Shown here: positions 1,827 through 22,660 of the stretch, in pieces | Numbering within the stretch: position 1 is the first letter of the stretch | Layout: the number at the start of each line of letters is the position of its first letter | Source: Clostridia bacterium | Lineage (GTDB): Bacteria; Bacillota; Clostridia; Oscillospirales; Acutalibacteraceae | Assembly (NCBI GenBank): GCA_017517135.1 | Contig: JAFXAK010000032.1 | Coordinates: 1-32,780 of the forward strand | Reading direction: 5' to 3' | Length of the DNA stretch: 32,780 nt | Translations under genes and position numbers: made by a program | Notes under the pieces: generated by a model | What the model was told of the DNA's origin: nothing | Databases searched by the model: none | Seen by the model: the letters and a program-made list of their open reading frames with translations, nothing else

Positions 1827-2762
1827 TTATTCTCCGATAATAATTTCCTTATCAATTTTGCCTATGAAAAGATTGTTTTCAGCGGTTAATGACGAAGAGT
1901 CGGGATTTTCGAGAATAATACCGTAACTCGGTGAATCGGTTACTTCGGGAGAAATAAATACATTCTCTCTTACCTTAAGGTCATAAACCATAGGTCTGAA
2001 GAAGATGTAGCCTCTGCTTTTTCCCTCTCTGCCTGACGGACCGTCAAAAATATTGTTTTCAATTAAAATGTTGTGATGGTCAATATCTCCGTGGTGGCCG
2101 ACACCGGGAAAACCGTCACACTTAAATATATTATTTCTAATTACAATGTTACGGCAGACTGTGTCGTCTTTACAGAAATCTATAAGCTTTCCGTCGCAGT
2201 CATAAACGGGACCATAGGAGCCGTCACGGGACATATCAAGCTGAATCTGCTCATTATAAAGTCCTTCATTTTTGGCTGTGTATGACGGACCGTCAAAAAT
2301 ACAGTTCTGAACAGTTGTGTTCTGTGTGCCGTTTATTTCTATGAAATGCCAATGTGCACAGTGTACAAAACGGCAGTTTTCAATGGTGATATTGCTGCAA
2401 TGAACAGTATTTATAAGTGTTGCTTTCTCATCAAGATTTTTGTTGCCGTCAAAAATACCGCCCGAAATCACAACATCGTGTGTCCCCGAATATTCACCCC
2501 ATTCAGGCTCAGAATAAGATGCAAGAAGATACCTCGTAAGCGGCTCACTTTTATCACTTCTGAGAAGTGTTGCTTTATCTGAAAATTTAAGTATCTGATA
2601 CGAATAAAAAATCAAAGCACCTGAAAGCAGGTATATTCCGTCAGGGAAATAAACGGTGCCTCCGTCTTTTAGTTCGTCAATACAAGCCTGCAACGCCTTT
2701 GTGTCGTCGTGAATACCGTCTGCATAAACATTTTTATTGTGTATTACATTTATAAATTTCAT
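1827..2762 (-). CDS. Right-handed parallel beta-helix protein (pectate lyase/GH28-like fold)
   Basis: Protein of 311 residues. The N-terminus has the signature of the Pectate_lyase_3/GH28 type: ADGIHDDTKALQACIDE (about 14-30) followed by GGTVYFPDGIYLL. Behind it run repeated short beta-strand turns rich in Asn and Ile (ITIENCRF, TTVQNCIFDG, IVIRNNIFKC, ILIENNIFDG), the ladder of a parallel beta-helix. Conserved acidic and histidine residues cluster at GVGHHGDIDHHN (about 226-237), a plausible active site. No signal peptide. Such folds act as polysaccharide lyases, hydrolases or epimerases; the exact reaction cannot be read from the sequence. Its start codon sits 4 bases after the upstream stop, with the SD GGAGG inside the end of that gene, so the two are translationally coupled. 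Confidence 0.7.
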   Translation of the reverse strand: MKFINVIHNKNVYADGIHDDTKALQACIDELKDGGTVYFPDGIYLLSGALIFYSYQILKFSDKATLLRSDKSEPLTRYLLASYSEPEWGEYSGTHDVVISGGIFDGNKNLDEKATLINTVHCSNITIENCRFVHCAHWHFIEINGTQNTTVQNCIFDGPSYTAKNEGLYNEQIQLDMSRDGSYGPVYDCDGKLIDFCKDDTVCRNIVIRNNIFKCDGFPGVGHHGDIDHHNILIENNIFDGPSGREGKSRGYIFFRPMVYDLKVRENVFISPEVTDSPSYGIILENPDSSSLTAENNLFIGKIDKEIIIGE

Positions 2763-2766
2763 CAGC

Positions 2767-3696
2767 TCAGTCCTCCTGTATCAATTCTGATGTATGCGCT
2801 ACCTTTGAAATTCTCGGGGCAGCTCCCGTAAGATGTGAAATATCGCGGTATGCACCGATTGAGCTGTCATTAAACAAGCCCTCAGGAATCTGTGAGGTCC
2901 AGCCTGCTTCGTCAAATTCGGGAGCTTCAATACCGAATGCATAAAGCACGATAGCCGCAAGGTCGCGGATATTCATTTTTTCAAGCACGGTATTGTTTAT
3001 TCCTTTACCTGCTGCGGCAAAGGTTACATATTTTTCACCGTCTGTCCAGCCGCCGTGGCCGCCGCCTGAGCCGTCACCGGGGTTTGTGCCGCCGTGGTCG
3101 GCTATAACAATAAACAGTGTTTCGTCAATTATCCCTGCATCAGCTGCGGCAGTATATACATCGTTTACAAGAACATCAACCTCGCCTATACGCTTAAGGT
3201 GTTCTATAGTGCCGTAGCCGTGCCTGTGACCTGCCCCGTCAACACTGTCAAACTGAATAAAAAGAAAATCAGGCTTTTTACTGCGTATATAATCACAGAT
3301 AATCGGGGTTAATTCATCGTCATTTTTACTGTCATGAGAAACTCCCAGATTATTTTCAACAATTCCGTATGTAATCGGATTCCAGTCACAGAATGATCCG
3401 AGCTCAGCTTCAGGGAAAGCTTCTTTTATTCTTCTGAAAAGAGACGGAAAGGCAGAATCAACGGGATACGGCGTGGAGCTTACAATTCCGTTTGTAAGCT
3501 TATGCACCTCGGGACCGACACCGAGAAGCATTGAGCCCCAGCACTCGGCACTTATTGACGGATTAGAAGCCAGAGCATCATATATAACTGCCCCGTTTTC
3601 AAAAATCCTGTCAAAATTCGGTGTTACGGCATCTTTAATAAAAGAGCCTGCACCGTCTATTCCGAGAACAATAACATGTTCATATTTTCTGTTCAT
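2767..3696 (-). CDS. Alkaline-phosphatase-superfamily phosphodiesterase/phosphatase
   Basis: Protein of 309 residues with the metal ligands of the NPP/phosphonoacetate-hydrolase branch: D14 in LGIDGAG, a nucleophile motif NPSISAECW (S49 taking the place of the usual Thr), FDSVDGAGHRHGYG, VIADHGG, and a late GGHGGWTDG histidine. It therefore probably hydrolyses a phosphodiester, phosphomonoester or sulfate ester with two zinc ions. There is no signal peptide or membrane anchor, so it should act in the cytoplasm. It is the first gene of an operon with two carbohydrate-active proteins, which suggests a substituted (phosphorylated or sulfated) glycan or glycoside as substrate; that link is inference. 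SD AAAGGAG lies upstream and a strong promoter at 3738-3766. Confidence 0.8.
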   Translation of the reverse strand: MNRKYEHVIVLGIDGAGSFIKDAVTPNFDRIFENGAVIYDALASNPSISAECWGSMLLGVGPEVHKLTNGIVSSTPYPVDSAFPSLFRRIKEAFPEAELGSFCDWNPITYGIVENNLGVSHDSKNDDELTPIICDYIRSKKPDFLFIQFDSVDGAGHRHGYGTIEHLKRIGEVDVLVNDVYTAAADAGIIDETLFIVIADHGGTNPGDGSGGGHGGWTDGEKYVTFAAAGKGINNTVLEKMNIRDLAAIVLYAFGIEAPEFDEAGWTSQIPEGLFNDSSIGAYRDISHLTGAAPRISKVAHTSELIQED

Positions 3697-16364: not shown

Positions 16365-16705
16365 CAAGAAAACAATATAAGTCCGTTGTGAGCATATTTA
16401 CTCAGAGCGGATTTGTTTGTTTTTTATTGCAATTTGCCTTATTTCTTTTAAAATATTACAATTTGTTACCACGACTTACACAAAATACAGCAAAATGTTT
16501 TGTACAAGTCTAAAGAATTTTACCAATTACCCGTTTTTCACAAGAAAGGAATAAAATTTACTTGAAAAAAATAAAACATTATGATAAAATAGCTTAGAAT
16601 TGTATCAATATGCAGCATAGTAAAGTGTTAAACCGTTCAGATGTCTGCATATAATTTTCAGAGATTTTTCTCTTCCTACCAGCAAAGAAAGTGAAAGGTG
16701 CAGAT
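16365..16705 (+). promoter_or_regulatory. 341-base gene-free region with the opp promoter
   Basis: The region holds the yraN terminator and then a promoter TTGAAA (16562-16567), 17-base spacer, TAAAAT (16585-16590). About 110 bases of leader separate it from the oppB start, whose SD AAGGTG is 5 bases upstream. The stretch 16430-16560 is very AT-rich with no gene. I see no recognisable riboswitch, but the leader is long enough for one. Confidence 0.65.
16379..16427 (+). terminator. Probable terminator after yraN
   Basis: AAGTCCG pairs with CGGATTT across a roughly 25-base loop, followed by a T-rich tail (GTTTGTTTTTT). The long loop makes it weaker than the other terminators here. Confidence 0.5.
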
Positions 16706-17635
16706 ATGAACACTAAAACATTGGGCTATATACTCAAGAGAGTACTTCTTGCATTGTTGACTATCCTTGTAGTTATAACAATCACATTTTTCGTAATGCA
16801 TGCCGTTCCCGGCGGTCCCTTCCTCGGTGAAAAAGCTATTTCAGATGCAGCGAAAGCTGCTCTTGAAGCAAAATACGGTCTTGATAAGCCTCTCTTCCAG
16901 CAGTATTTGACCTATCTTAAGGATATTATAACCGAATTCGATTTCGGTCCCTCTATCAAACAAAGAGGCCGCGAGGTTATTGATATTATTGTTGACGGTA
17001 TGAGAACATCAGCAAAACTCGGTCTTGCTGCAGCTGCAATTGCACTCGCATTCGGAACAGTTCTCGGCTCCGTTGCTGCTTTACGCAGAAATAAGTTTAT
17101 TGACAGAGTTATAATGGTTATCACAACGGCATTCGTTTCTATGCCCTCATTCATTATGGGTATGTTTATGCTGCTGCTGTTCACGGTTAAATTCACCATC
17201 TTCCCCGCAAACGGTGCAGAAGCAGGAGGACTTGTGCTGCCTATCATAGCACTCTCCCTCTCCCCTATGGCAAACATCACAAGACTTACCCGCTCATCAA
17301 TGCTTGATGTTTTAGGTCAGGACTATATCCGTACCGCAAAGGCAAAGGGTGTTTCGGGTGTTAAAACAATCTTCGGTCACGCTCTTAAAAATGCACTTAT
17401 TCCCGTTATCACCTATTTCGGACCTATGCTTGCATATATCGTAACAGGCTCACTCGTTGTTGAACAGATTTTCGCTGTTCCCGGCATCGGCCGTTCATTC
17501 GTAAGCAGTATCATCAACCGTGACTACACTCTGATTATGGGCACAACAATCGTTCTTGCTATCCTTATAGTTATAATGAACCTTGTCAGCGATATTCTTT
17601 ATAAGGTTATCGATCCCCGTATCACTTTGGAATAA
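16706..17635 (+). CDS. oppB: Oligopeptide ABC transporter permease OppB
   Basis: Protein of 309 residues with six membrane segments. The N-terminal LGYILKRVLLALLTILVVITITFFVMHAVPGGP signature and the EAA loop AKGVSGVKTIFGHALKNALIPVITYFGP identify the first permease of a peptide/nickel (Dpp/Opp) importer. ATG at 16706 has AAGGTG 5 bases upstream. It pairs with OppC in the membrane. First gene of an operon oppB-C-D-F followed by the binding-protein gene. Confidence 0.96.
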   Translation: MNTKTLGYILKRVLLALLTILVVITITFFVMHAVPGGPFLGEKAISDAAKAALEAKYGLDKPLFQQYLTYLKDIITEFDFGPSIKQRGREVIDIIVDGMRTSAKLGLAAAAIALAFGTVLGSVAALRRNKFIDRVIMVITTAFVSMPSFIMGMFMLLLFTVKFTIFPANGAEAGGLVLPIIALSLSPMANITRLTRSSMLDVLGQDYIRTAKAKGVSGVKTIFGHALKNALIPVITYFGPMLAYIVTGSLVVEQIFAVPGIGRSFVSSIINRDYTLIMGTTIVLAILIVIMNLVSDILYKVIDPRITLE

Positions 17636-17658: not shown

Positions 17659-18720
17659 ATGAAAAAGAAAATTTTCAGTATGCATTTGAATGTAGATTCT
17701 TTCCTGCCGGCTTCAGCAGAGGAAAAGGCATATATGGTGCAGATGCGCCCCTCATCAACCTTCTTCCGTGACGGCGTTAAAAGATTTATTAAGAACAAGG
17801 TGGCTTTAGTCAGCCTTATCGTTATAGTTATTGTTGTGCTTTCGTGCATAATAATCCCTATGTTCTTACCCTATTCATATGACCAGATGTTAGGTGTTCA
17901 GCTCGGTAAGCCTGTTGATCCGTCCTACAATAATCTGGCTCCCTTTGAATTCGGAACAACCGAGCAGGCAAAAATTGATGCAGGTGAGGATGTTTTCCCC
18001 CATATCTTCGGTACAGATGCTCAGGGACGAGATTACTTTGCAAGAATTCTTTACGGCACAAGAATTTCACTTGCAGTAGGATTCTTTGCAAGTATCATCG
18101 TTCTTCTTATCGGTATGACGGTAGGCTCAATTTCAGGTTATTTCGGCGGCAAGGTTGACCTTGTTATAATGAGAATAGTTGATATTATCTATTCATTGCC
18201 CGATATGCTTCTTATCATTCTGCTTGCTTCTGCTCTCAAGCAGACAAACCTTGATGAAATTATCAGAGGAACCATTCTTGAACGGATAGGTGCAAACATC
18301 ATAAGTCTGTTCATTGTATTCGGTGTTCTCTATTGGGTATCAATGTCCCGTCTTATCAGAGGTCAGATTCTTTCTCTGAGAGAACAGGAATATGTGCTTG
18401 CTTCTCAGGCAGCCGGTGCAAAGGGCAAGTGGATAATCTTCAAGCACCTTATGCCCAACTGCATAAGCGTTGTAATTATTTCAACAGCTCTTCAGATTCC
18501 CAGTGCTATCTTTACTGAAAGCTATCTTTCCTTCCTCGGTCTGGGTGTTAACGCTCCGATGCCCTCACTCGGCTCACTTGCATCCGATGCTCTCAACGGT
18601 ATCAACTCATATCCTTTAAGACTGGTTATTCCCGCTGTTGTTATTTCACTTATCGTTTTATCTCTTAACCTTTTGGGCGACGGTCTTCGCGATGCATTTG
18701 ACCCCAAGCTCAACGGCTAA
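17659..18720 (+). CDS. oppC: Oligopeptide ABC transporter permease OppC
   Basis: Protein of 353 residues. A long N-terminal cytoplasmic part leads into the first membrane segment (KNKVALVSLIVIVIVVLSC), then a large extracytoplasmic loop with FGTDAQGRDYFARILYGTRISL, the OppC_N/BPD hallmark, and the EAA loop AAGAKGKWIIFKHLMPN. The C-terminal GDGLRDAFDPKLNG is typical of the family. SD GAGGA 8 bases upstream. It lies 23 bases after oppB and forms the second half of the channel. Confidence 0.96.
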   Translation: MKKKIFSMHLNVDSFLPASAEEKAYMVQMRPSSTFFRDGVKRFIKNKVALVSLIVIVIVVLSCIIIPMFLPYSYDQMLGVQLGKPVDPSYNNLAPFEFGTTEQAKIDAGEDVFPHIFGTDAQGRDYFARILYGTRISLAVGFFASIIVLLIGMTVGSISGYFGGKVDLVIMRIVDIIYSLPDMLLIILLASALKQTNLDEIIRGTILERIGANIISLFIVFGVLYWVSMSRLIRGQILSLREQEYVLASQAAGAKGKWIIFKHLMPNCISVVIISTALQIPSAIFTESYLSFLGLGVNAPMPSLGSLASDALNGINSYPLRLVIPAVVISLIVLSLNLLGDGLRDAFDPKLNG

Positions 18721-18762
18721 AATTACGAAGAAAGGAAAACCCTTAGGGGTGTGAACAATATT

Positions 18763-19785
18763 ATGTCATTGCTTGAAGTAAAAAACCTGCAGACTTCTTT
18801 CTTTACTGATGCCGGTGAGGTTAAAGCGGTAAACGGTATCTCCTTTAACCTTGAAAGAGGTAAGGTTCTCGGTATCGTTGGTGAATCAGGCTCAGGTAAA
18901 TCAGTAACAGCTTATTCTATAATGCAGATACTTGCATCCACAGGTAAAATTGTGGGCGGCTCAATCAAGCTCGACGGTGAAGAGCTTGTCGGTGCCGGCG
19001 AAAAAACAATGAGAAAGGTCAGAGGCAACAAAATTTCTATCATTTTCCAGGATCCTATGACCTCCCTTAATCCCACTCATACTATCGGTCATCAGATTAT
19101 GGAGGCAATTGTTCTTCATACAGACAGAAATAAGAAAGAGGCTTATAACAGAGCAGTTGAAATGCTGCGTCTTGTTAATATAAATGAACCCGAAAAGAGA
19201 ATGAAGCAGTATCCCCACGAGCTTTCGGGCGGTATGCGTCAGAGAGTTGTTATTGCTATGGCACTCGCCTGCGAGCCCGACATTCTTATTGCAGACGAGC
19301 CCACAACGGCTCTTGATGTTACCATTCAGGCTCAGATTCTTGACCTTATGACCTCCTTGCAGAAGGAGCTCGGAATGGCTATCATTATGATAACCCACGA
19401 CCTCGGTGTTGTTGCCCAGCTTTGTGATGAGGTTATCGTTATGTATGCCGGCTCTATCTGTGAACAGGGTTCTGCGGATGAAATTTTCTATAATCCCCGC
19501 CACGAATACACAAAGGGACTTATGAATTCTATCCCCACAACAAACACCTTCGGTCAGAAGCTTCGTCCTATCACAGGTACACCTATTGACCTTCTTAATA
19601 TGCCTGAAGGCTGTCCTTTCGCTCCCAGATGCGACGCAGCAATGAAAATCTGCATAAAATCGAGAGCTGAGCATATGCTCATTAATGAAGATCATATGGC
19701 TGCTTGCTGGATGAATGTAAAAAAAGGAATTGAAGAGGGAACTATTGAGATTTCCGAAAAAAATAACGAGGAGGAAGAAAACTGA
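18763..19785 (+). CDS. oppD: Oligopeptide ABC transporter ATP-binding protein OppD
   Basis: Protein of 340 residues. Walker A GESGSGKS, signature LSGGMRQR, Walker [13 protein letters not shown] and the H-loop ITHDLG are all intact, and the C-terminal oligo_HPY extension includes CPFAPRC. The ATG at 18763 fits the family N-terminus ([13 protein letters not shown]); a GTG four codons earlier is an alternative, and the short palindrome CCCTTAGGG sits between the AAGGAAAA and both starts. It ends with a one-base overlap with oppF (TGATG). Confidence 0.95.
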
Positions 19786-20774
19786 TGAGCGACAACAAAA
19801 CCAACACTCCCCTCGTTGAAATAAAAAACTTAAAAAAATATTTTGATATAAACACAGGTATGTTCACCTCTAAACCCCTCAAGGCTGTTGATGATGTTTC
19901 CTTTACAATAAACAAAGGTGAAACACTCGGTCTTGTCGGTGAATCAGGCTGCGGTAAATCTACAGTAGGTCGTACTATTCTCCAGCTCTACAAGCCCACC
20001 GCCGGTGAGGTTATCTATGACGGTAAATTATTGAAATCAAAGGCAGACATTGCCGAATACCGTAAAAAATCAACAATGGTATTCCAGGACCCTTACTCTT
20101 CACTTAACCCCAGAATGACTGTTTCCGATATCATAGCAGAGCCTCTGGATATTCATAAAATGTATAAGAACGAAGAAGAAAGAAAAGAAAAGGTTCTTCA
20201 GCTTCTTTCTAAGGTTGGTCTTAACAGTGAGCATGCTGCCCGTTATGCGCACGAATTTTCAGGCGGTCAGCGTCAGAGAATCGGTATTGCCCGTGCACTT
20301 GCAATAAATCCCGAATTTATTGTCTGCGACGAACCCGTTTCTGCTCTTGATGTTTCAATTCAGGCTCAGGTTATCAATATGTTCAGTGAATTCCAGCAGG
20401 AATTGGGACTTACCTATCTGTTCATTGCTCACGACCTTTTGGTTGTTCGCCATATCAGTAACAGAATTGCGGTTATGTATCTCGGTAAGCTTGTTGAGTT
20501 AACTGATGCTGCAACGATTTATGAGCATCCTCTTCATCCTTACTCAAAGGCTCTTATGTCTGCAGTTCCTCTCCCCGATCCCAAAATTGCAAGACTCAAT
20601 AACCGTATACCTCTTTCGGGTGATATTCCCTCTCCCCTCAACGCTCCCTCAGGCTGTCCGTTCCGTACCCGTTGCGAATACGCATGTGAGCGTTGTGCGG
20701 AAGAAATGCCCGAATTCAGAGAAGTGGAAAAAGGTCATTTTGTTGCTTGCCACAGAGTTGAGGAAATCAACTGA
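19785..20774 (+). CDS. oppF: Oligopeptide ABC transporter ATP-binding protein OppF
   Basis: Protein of 329 residues. Walker A GESGCGKS, signature FSGGQRQR, Walker [14 protein letters not shown]-loop IAHDLL and C-terminal CPFRTRC are intact. It forms the heterodimeric motor with OppD. The start overlaps the oppD stop. A hairpin in the 83-base gap to the binding-protein gene (20789-20821) may set the relative mRNA levels. Confidence 0.96.
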
Positions 20775-20857: not shown

Positions 20858-22660
20858 ATGAAAAAAATCTTTGCGCTTATCCTTGTAGCTGTTATGATGC
20901 TTTCAGTTGTTGCTTGTACCGGTAACACCGGCAACGAAGGCAACGAAGGAACAGAAGTAAAGCAGGTTGCAGCACCCACACTCACATACCTTTACAACAC
21001 AAGTGAAGGTCACAAGGCTATCGGTGAATATCTCCAGAGTGCTCTTCAGTCTGCAGGTATCACAATGAACCTTGAAAATCAGGAATGGAACACATTCCTT
21101 GAGACCCGTAAGAACGGTGACTACTCCATCGCAAGAAACGGCTGGCTCGCTGACTACAACGATCCCATCTGCTTCCTTGATATGTGGACATCCAACTCCG
21201 GTAACAACGATGTTCAGTACGGCAAAGGCGCTCACGCTGAACTCAAAATGTACAACCTTGACCTCACAGCTTACGGTTATGAAGATAAGGTAGAAAACGG
21301 CACATGGGCAGAAACCTATGATGTTCTTATCTCCAGAATCAAGAGCTGCACAGATGCAGAAAATCGTTATGCAATGATGCACCTTGCAGAAGATATGCTT
21401 ATGGAAACAGGCTGTATCGTTCCTCTTTACTACTACACAGACCTTTACATGATCGATGATACCGTTAACGGTTTCTTCTCCAACCCTCTCGGTTACAAGT
21501 ATTTCATGTATTCTGATGTAGACGGCAAGACAGATTCTATCTCTGTATGTCTCTCTTCCGAACCCCAGACTCTTGACCCCGCTCTCAACAGTGCAGTTGA
21601 CGGTGCAACAATGATTGCTCACCTCTTCTCCGGTCTTGCTAAGTGGGCTCAGGACGAAAACGGCAACCTTGTTATCGTTGCTGACGCAGCTGAAGAACTC
21701 ACAGAAGGCGTTGTAAATGAAGACGGAACAGTTACATATACATACACTCTTCGTGAAGGTATGAAGTGGTCAAACGGCGACGAACTCAAGGCTTCTGATT
21801 TCGTAAACTCATGGAACCGCGCAGCTTCCGCTGACCTCGGTGCAGACTACGGCTACATGTTCGAAATCGTTGACGGCTATGCTGAAATGCAGGAAGACAC
21901 AACAAAGCTTCTCAATGCTACTGCTGACGATGCTACACGCAAAATTACAGTTACAATTGAAAACGCTGTTTCCTACTGGAACGAGCTCCTTGCATTCCCC
22001 ACATACTTCCCCGTACACTCCTCTGCATTTGATAACGAAGCTTGGGCTACAGACCCCGCTACTTACATCTGCAACGGTGCTTACACAATCTCTGCTTGGG
22101 ATCACAACAGTGTTATCACTCTTACAAAGAATGAAAACTACATTGATGCAGCTGATGTTACAATGAAAGAAATCAAGACATTCCTTTCAGACGATGCTAA
22201 CAACATGCTCTCAAACTTTAAGAACGGTTCATGGCTTCTTATCGATGACGTTCCCACAAACGAAATCGCTACTCTTAAGACAGAATATGCTGATGAATTC
22301 GTAATTGCAGGTCAGATCGGTACATACTATGTATGCTGGAACATCAACGAAGACCTTCTCGCAGGCAGCGGCCTTGAAGGCGTTGAAAAGGAAAAGGCAC
22401 AGCAGGAAATCAGAAATGCTATTGCTCTTCTCTTCGACAGAACATACATCGTTAACGACATCGCTCAGGGCGGACAGCTTCCCGCTTCCTCCTTCGTTGC
22501 TATGGGTATGACAGATGCTGACGGTTCTGAATTCTACAAGAATGCAGGCGACAGCGAAGAATATGACGGTTACTACAACATCGCAGATGACGCTTTCGAA
22601 GCTAACTGCCAGAAGGCTGTTGAAGTTCTTAAGAAGTACTACAACAACATCGCTGCTTAA
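20858..22660 (+). CDS. oppA: Peptide-binding lipoprotein of the SBP_bac_5/OppA family, circularly permuted
   Basis: Lipoprotein of 600 residues. Residues 1-20 are a signal peptide ending in the lipobox SVVAC (C20), then a Gly/Asn/Glu-rich linker. Residues 41-219 (TLTYLYNTSEGHKAIGE, NQEWNTFLETRKNGDYSIAR, WLADYNDP, VPLYYYTDLYM, LGYKYFMYSD) match the C-terminal third of OppA. Residues about 225-600 (SISVCLSSEPQTLDPALNSA, LREGMKWSNGDELKASDFVNSW, ICNGAYTISAWDHNSVITL, YYVCWNINEDLL, AIALLFDRTYIVNDI, ending KAVEVLKKYYNNIAA) match the N-terminal two thirds. The family order is thus swapped with the signal peptide kept in front. ATG at 20858 has AAAGGA upstream. Last gene of the opp operon; codon use is strongly biased, suggesting high expression. 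Confidence 0.93.
   Translation: MKKIFALILVAVMMLSVVACTGNTGNEGNEGTEVKQVAAPTLTYLYNTSEGHKAIGEYLQSALQSAGITMNLENQEWNTFLETRKNGDYSIARNGWLADYNDPICFLDMWTSNSGNNDVQYGKGAHAELKMYNLDLTAYGYEDKVENGTWAETYDVLISRIKSCTDAENRYAMMHLAEDMLMETGCIVPLYYYTDLYMIDDTVNGFFSNPLGYKYFMYSDVDGKTDSISVCLSSEPQTLDPALNSAVDGATMIAHLFSGLAKWAQDENGNLVIVADAAEELTEGVVNEDGTVTYTYTLREGMKWSNGDELKASDFVNSWNRAASADLGADYGYMFEIVDGYAEMQEDTTKLLNATADDATRKITVTIENAVSYWNELLAFPTYFPVHSSAFDNEAWATDPATYICNGAYTISAWDHNSVITLTKNENYIDAADVTMKEIKTFLSDDANNMLSNFKNGSWLLIDDVPTNEIATLKTEYADEFVIAGQIGTYYVCWNINEDLLAGSGLEGVEKEKAQQEIRNAIALLFDRTYIVNDIAQGGQLPASSFVAMGMTDADGSEFYKNAGDSEEYDGYYNIADDAFEANCQKAVEVLKKYYNNIAA

Follow-up and report, generated by a model that had tools for sequence, protein, structure and literature searches.

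Circular permutation of proteins has long been known, with duplication as the earliest model for it, and permutation intermediates are well documented for methyltransferases, according to an excerpt of a review (PMC3320104). In the E. coli peptide importer DppABCDF, DppB inserts a scoop into the interlobe cleft of the receptor (PMC12136057). Here we analyze a receptor gene of the related OppA family (Pfam SBP_bac_5) at positions 20858-22660 (+ strand) of contig JAFXAK010000032.1 from a Clostridia bacterium; this whole stretch of 32,780 nt is called the window below. On sequence evidence, the open reading frame (ORF) is confirmed as a circularly permuted OppA/SBP_bac_5 lipoprotein. Very probably it is a functional permuted OppA of its own oppBCDF importer, with an order change that recurred at three sites.

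The ORF encodes a product of 600 residues with an MKK start and a lipobox Cys at residue 20. An earlier interpretation of the letters alone (the sequence-only reading) had proposed a permuted OppA-type lipoprotein, and two SBP_bac_5 matches in swapped profile order bear it out: nucleotides 20975-21514 matched positions 290-367 of the 368-position profile (expect value, E, 3.9e-16), and nucleotides 21530-22657 matched positions 6-264 (E 1.4e-40). These swapped-order E-values exclude a chance match. Since positions 290-367 come ahead of 6-264, the protein is not a collinear OppA and was classed as a permuted variant of the family; normal profile order, which had been named as the finding that would speak against permutation, was not what we saw. 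The whole protein scored 193.6 bits against a curated cut-off of 32.4, and each piece alone also passed. In phmmer searches of PDB sequences, residues 220-560 aligned to 15-340 of B. subtilis OppA (8are) and residues 39-121 to 368-452 of the same chain; DppE (8ay0) and OppA (1b05) were matched in likewise swapped order. The best stretch with the NCBIfam OppA model placed residues 233-548 on model positions 46-345, and other NCBIfam binding-protein models placed residues 40-127 on 376-464, or 52-113 on 389-450. A profile made from 93 family sequences was doubled in tandem (2 x 565 columns), and the protein followed a single path on it from column 374 to 936: the cyclic order change spans the protein, with no leftover duplicate.

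Landmarks along the chain follow the same order (LYNTSEGH at residue 45, MYSDVDG at 217, SEPQTLDP at 234 and NNIAA at 596), with the C-terminal third (residues ~38-218) ahead of the N-terminal two thirds (~227-597). Calling the OppA N-terminal half a, the middle part b and the C-terminal third c, the window gene has the order c-a-b (P1 hereafter), against a-b-c in canonical OppA. The sequence evidence also supports the proposed architecture, in which a short linker connects the native ends and the chain is reopened in the third lobe, with S219-D226 as the more exact approximate limits of that linker. The linker proposed between Cys20 and the receptor is present, but not with the suggested 20 residues, as 24 separate Cys20 from LYNTSEGH. 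The features of the gene and of its operon are as follows.

20858..20917, + strand: lipoprotein signal peptide and lipobox, Cys20 (from the sequence, by motif rule)
20918..20968, + strand: anchor-to-receptor spacer, residues 21-37 (17 residues)
20969..21511, + strand: segment c, OppA C-terminal third, residues 38-218, now N-terminal (OppA 360-445 onward, Pfam 290-367)
within 20969..21511, + strand: H52, R84, R93, W96 and D99, held by segment c
21227..21301, + strand: insertion region, residues ~124-148, P3 cut site in relatives (unmatched in OppA at ~445)
21512..21535, + strand: native-end linker S219-D226, SDVDGKTD (similar length in P1, P2 and P3)
21536..22360, + strand: segment a, OppA N-terminal half, residues 227-501
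22352..22381, + strand: loop, residues ~499-508, P2 cut site in relatives (insertion relative to OppA at ~285)
22364..22648, + strand: segment b, OppA middle part, residues 503-597, now C-terminal
22658..22660, + strand: stop codon, new C-terminus
16691..17635, + strand: oppB permease (GTG start, ATG at 16706 possible; BPD_transp_1 and BPD_transp_1_N on 16709-17632)
17659..18720, + strand: oppC permease (Pfam BPD_transp_1, OppC_N)
18751..19785, + strand: oppD ATPase (Pfam ABC_tran, oligo_HPY)
19785..20774, + strand: oppF ATPase (Pfam ABC_tran, oligo_HPY)

The receptor gene lies directly 3' of oppB, oppC, oppD and oppF. In the structure model, the insertion region at residues ~124-148 is mostly, but not exclusively, loop, and the loop of the P2 cut lies between a strand (481-494) and a helix (508-523). 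A tRNA scan across the window found none. Contig C9 of the same genome (G000) carries two more SBP_bac_5 genes (2048-3199 and 79503-80444), each with one continuous profile match.

A scan of 357 relatives, one genome per species, kept 80 homologous loci, a few of which are copies of one another. Sorted by segment order, they comprise 27 full-length P1 genes in other genomes (L031-L057), one more P1 gene, L060, truncated at a contig end, 27 genes with a second order, P2 (b-c-a, in some cases truncated at a contig end), three c-a genes that are incomplete (L082, L086 and L088) and 22 canonical genes. Orthologs of the same order, proposed earlier as a check, were thus found; the 24 P1 proteins aligned to the window protein were 64-85% identical to it. 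The hosts in the P1 records were roe and water deer, yak, cattle, buffalo, sheep, goat and horse. A search for plasmids returned 1,949 records, every one below 60% identity and matched irrespective of segment order. The whole oppB-C-D-F set precedes the receptor in 25 of 27 P1, 21 of 27 P2 and 19 of 22 canonical loci; ten of the remaining 11 are short at a contig end, and the eleventh, L077, has no opp genes in its 3 kb of upstream sequence, nor has the unclassified, P2-like L082 in 5.7 kb. The P2 operon of L085 is followed directly by another receptor, of canonical order, together with an oppBCDF set of its own (L085:7787-13625).

An assembly artefact, in which neighbouring receptor genes or the two ends of one gene were misjoined, could be imagined for a window that spans an entire contig (32,780 bases) of a draft genome in 42 contigs and whose relatives are mostly metagenome-assembled. 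However, the further 27 full-length genes with this order exclude a chimeric assembly, including the chimera of adjacent genes that the sequence-only reading had raised against itself; to these are added the same operon in front in nearly all of them and single-contig genomes with a permutant (G958 with P2, G671 and G1194 with P1). In a fourth single-contig genome, G1369, the permuted gene is split into two ORFs. The ratio of nonsynonymous to synonymous substitution rates (dN/dS, 19 pairs) is well under 1 and alike in every form: the permuted receptors are under purifying selection. For the family the artefact is already refuted, and its probability is negligible.

Some relatives have unusual structures. 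Receptor genes of the OppA family are split in two ORFs by a stop or frame break in L239:9710-11392, L259 and L101. An ORF of 1,125 residues (L244:2211-5585), considered as a double receptor, was rejected as such: its single OppA part, of canonical order, is preceded by regions that by eye resemble dockerin-type repeats and a BMP-kind type-I binding protein. By visual inspection, L015 (P3) and L023 (canonical) have at the N-terminus what resembles a dockerin-type repeat in place of the usual lipobox and spacer, suggesting another surface attachment.

A single permuted order (P1 only) was dropped once finer segment splitting showed P2 and then P3 (c2-a-b-c1, with segment c split into c1 and c2), the latter in nine of the 30 loci L001-L030; with the canonical order the family has four forms. 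The first residue on the doubled profile (565 columns) fell at columns 364-379 in P1, 273-284 in P2 and 481-490 in P3; of the permuted ORFs placed in this way, the incomplete L082 alone began elsewhere, at column 412. On OppA numbering, the alignments put the cuts at about 357 (P1), 285 (P2) and 445 (P3); those of P2 and P3 coincide with stretches present in the receptor family described here and missing from OppA. All three fall in domain III if, as we assume, it comprises residues 271-486 of OppA, both native ends presumably lying in domain I. Identity among P1, P2 and canonical relatives is mostly 60-80%, and about 40% for P3. Three distinct cut sites exist, and so more than one event is needed.

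The linker between the native ends is of similar length in all rotations (YKYFMY-SDVDGKTD-SISVCLSSEP in the window, NSTVDGKGD in a P2 and ATLSNGSD in a P3). Its spread was followed with probes of 96 residues across the fused ends, for which an unbroken match is possible only on joined ends. Counting unbroken matches of at least 80 residues, with the source genome of the window included and with overlapping genome sets, we found positives in 14 of 300 genomes at family level, 16 of 345 at order level (P3 probe), 9 of 391 at class level and 3 of 398 at phylum level (P3 probe; a fourth, G1278, is partial), and in at least 11 of 398 at phylum level with a deep P1 probe. The fetched genes with such a match that were intact enough to classify were all permutants. 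At E up to 10, none of the alignments to OppA-type PDB chains bridged the fused junction; those to two CdvA chains did (E about 0.4) and were regarded as chance.

The trees call for repeated changes of order. An earlier quick tree of 96 rows needed five. With 173 rows (92 canonical, 31 P2, 29 P1 and 21 P3; ORFs below 75% of the columns, near-copies at >=97% identity and L082, L023, L101 and L147 omitted), a quick receptor tree, in which long branches may meet, needed 13, and its well-supported branches alone force eight for the canonical label, four for P2, three for P1 and two for P3. A careful core receptor tree, thinned from 101 rows to 78, needed seven; among its 200 bootstrap trees P2 formed one clade in 0% and P1 in 2%. 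The operon tree, made from OppBCDF with the receptor excluded and with seven deep or long rows left out of 79, rejects one P2 clade (log-likelihood 430 lower, p 4e-6), also without L231 (268 lower, p 3e-33). At least two origins of P2 are well supported. Further P1 and P2 origins are likely among the deep lineages (L190, L191/L202, L222/L224 and their kin), whose long branches leave the trees uncertain.

The most informative P2 gene, L151 (genome G384), is located among canonical genes. Each of its six segments is nearest a canonical gene (82-93%, versus 77-90% for the best P2), and its operon groups among canonical operons. The receptor tree rejects a group of L151 and the 13 main P2 rows (p 0.015), a group named post hoc from the tree, the P1 and P2 groups having been set by gene order. 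At its front, L151 reads MAAVEAENARAEIRNA; the counterpart in canonical neighbours, within the a-b loop, is LTGVEAENARAEIRNA. Its back end stops within that same loop. Its junction, YFMYCTV-PTGSSISVCLASEP, resembles a canonical end followed by the last spacer residues of a canonical start, e.g. ATGSSIAVCLASEP in L090, and differs from the junctions of the main P2 rows. This seam looks like what an in-frame tandem duplication with trimming would leave. The order would have changed in place, most likely by such a duplication of the receptor gene and subsequent trimming of both ends, and repeated events of this kind among relatives, at three permissive sites, would have given P1, P2 and P3.

Candidate leftovers of a duplication were examined and discarded. 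The tblastn matches running past the stop codon were noise by a profile search of the 700 nt downstream, whose only matches were a divergent paralog behind the L151 gene, another behind L085 and the end of L101, which is broken (reverse-strand and shuffled controls gave 0 matches each). The 215-residue ORF after the L151 gene, with ~33% identity to the family, is a divergent paralog at a contig end. Directly after the P2 gene of L231 and near the contig end, L231:7457-8101 holds only the C-terminal third, not the front, of a divergent OppA paralog.

Several results weigh against recurrent permutation by this route. Approximately unbiased (AU) tests on the receptor tree do not reject a single clade of P2 (p 0.11), of P1 (p 0.40) or of P1 and P2 together (p 0.064), nor two other P2 groups joined with the main P2 rows (p 0.25 and 0.28), and the operon tree does not reject one P1 clade (p 0.36). 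With AU and operon results so mixed, P1 may have a single origin in the core clade, and the mixed receptor signal perhaps comes from recombination. The likeness of the P1 linker VDGKTD to VDGKGD in P2 could reflect one shared fusion. No double-length gene was found in loci 31-110 and 115-230, and no trimmed remnant within 700 nt 3' of the stop in a limited sample of 175 gene copies (47 P1, 31 P2, 21 P3 and 76 canonical). L077 and L082, P2 or P2-like, have 3-6 kb upstream without opp genes, unlike their relatives, and the structure prediction for P3 was poor (mean predicted local distance difference test score, pLDDT, 49.9; 7 sequences).

If a single ancient permutation had occurred, a tandem abc-abc ancestor would have been trimmed variously to P1, P2, P3 and the canonical form again. 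The similar length of the fused junction in the three rotations fits this, as do the AU values above 0.05 and the canonical genes L105, L162 and L197 within or adjoining permuted clades; nevertheless we consider it rather unlikely, given L151, with all segments nearest canonical genes and a junction unlike the main P2 rows, the rejection of one P2 clade by the operon tree, and the lack of double-length genes and remnants in the loci and downstream regions searched. Fission and fusion, with a two-gene stage whose halves were fused again in another order, is a route that the excerpted review describes for other proteins (PMC3320104), and the two-ORF receptor genes L239 and L259 would suit it. 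We saw no pairs of separately started, secreted halves, although no search was aimed at them, and what meets at the L151 junction resembles a whole gene's end and start, making this route very unlikely.

Improbable, too, is that each rotation arose once and then spread by horizontal transfer of the receptor gene or the operon. Two P2 loci named Coriobacteriaceae, with 51-75% segment identity to the window, and the disagreement of receptor and operon trees in places are what such transfer would produce. L151 and L231, however, stand with canonical genes in both trees, so that their gene and operon did not come from a known P2 donor, and the deep P1 genes L233, L234 and L246-L248 have another operon order, in which the receptor precedes oppBCDF. 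In L235 (P1) the receptor is on the opposite strand. We retain repeated permutation in place as the preferred explanation.

Regarding function, window residues H52, R84, R93, W96 and D99 align to OppA H371, R404, R413, W416 and D419, which we take to be peptide-site residues; the five positions are kept in the window and in 27-29 of 29 P1 rows, and the ligand-site residues look alike across all forms. By motif rule, 93 of 100 genes have a signal with lipobox, including all 29 P1 and 24 P2. The same rule, which in some rows picks a Cys ahead of the likely lipobox, gives an anchor spacer comparable in length to canonical ones: 17 residues in the window, 4-35 in P1 and 4-44 in canonical genes. 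Residues 218-599 were predicted to have an OppA-like fold, and the top Foldseek matches were OppA-type proteins, with query template-modelling scores of about 0.34-0.46 in the first 30 rows, in keeping with a permuted chain of which only part can be aligned in order. The moved third (residues 38-218) would also adopt the OppA fold, and the receptor presumably serves peptide import.

The protein would fold into the usual three-lobed clamp, in which the native ends, which we assume to lie close together in lobe I, would be joined by the short linker and the chain opened in lobe III. It would clamp a peptide between the lobes, dock on OppB and OppC, and open there. Rotation would keep the peptide site and the docking faces in place and shift only the chain ends, so that the lipid anchor with its spacer would hold lobe III instead of lobe I; an anchor on a different lobe, as suggested before, follows from the anatomy of the rotated chain. 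The moved anchor may alter docking. A tentative extension is that the OppA locus of these bacteria is a hot spot of circular permutation, reopened many times and always at one of three lobe III sites because it pays to have the anchor on lobe III rather than on lobe I; the benefit might conceivably lie in docking, receptor release or cell-wall access, which is equally speculative. The deep P1 receptors L233, L252, L254 and L255 have no Cys in the signal and so perhaps no anchor to move, a point that counts against the anchor as the general reason.

Four cyclic orders occur among these relatives, three of them mostly 60-80% identical and mostly at one operon position, so that close relatives allow the steps of circular permutation, and the constraints on it, to be traced. 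The family is also a natural experiment on the tethering of an importer receptor, since the anchor would change lobe and the partner genes stay, and the three positions that it marks, where new ends are tolerated in peptide-binding proteins, may aid sensor design. Collinear annotation can misread rotated genes of this kind.

Our search of open-licence papers found no description of a natural permuted OppA-type receptor, and the window receptor appears to be a previously undescribed variant of a known family. With OppA and DppE (SBP_bac_5, cluster C) it shares homology over nearly the full length, a lipoprotein signal, oppBCDF partners and ligand-site residues; it differs in its rotated chain, whose new ends and lipid anchor would be in the part equivalent to lobe III (271-486), whereas in OppA and DppE the anchor is beside the native ends. 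Engineered circularly permuted binding proteins serve as sensors, and such a protein tolerates new ends; those are laboratory designs, while the window family is natural and under purifying selection. Permutants made by duplication, such as DNA methyltransferases and saposin/swaposin, resemble it in the cyclic change within one gene, as far as the review excerpt goes (PMC3320104). In contrast to them, here a secreted receptor has four cyclic orders among close relatives, mostly in the same operon position.
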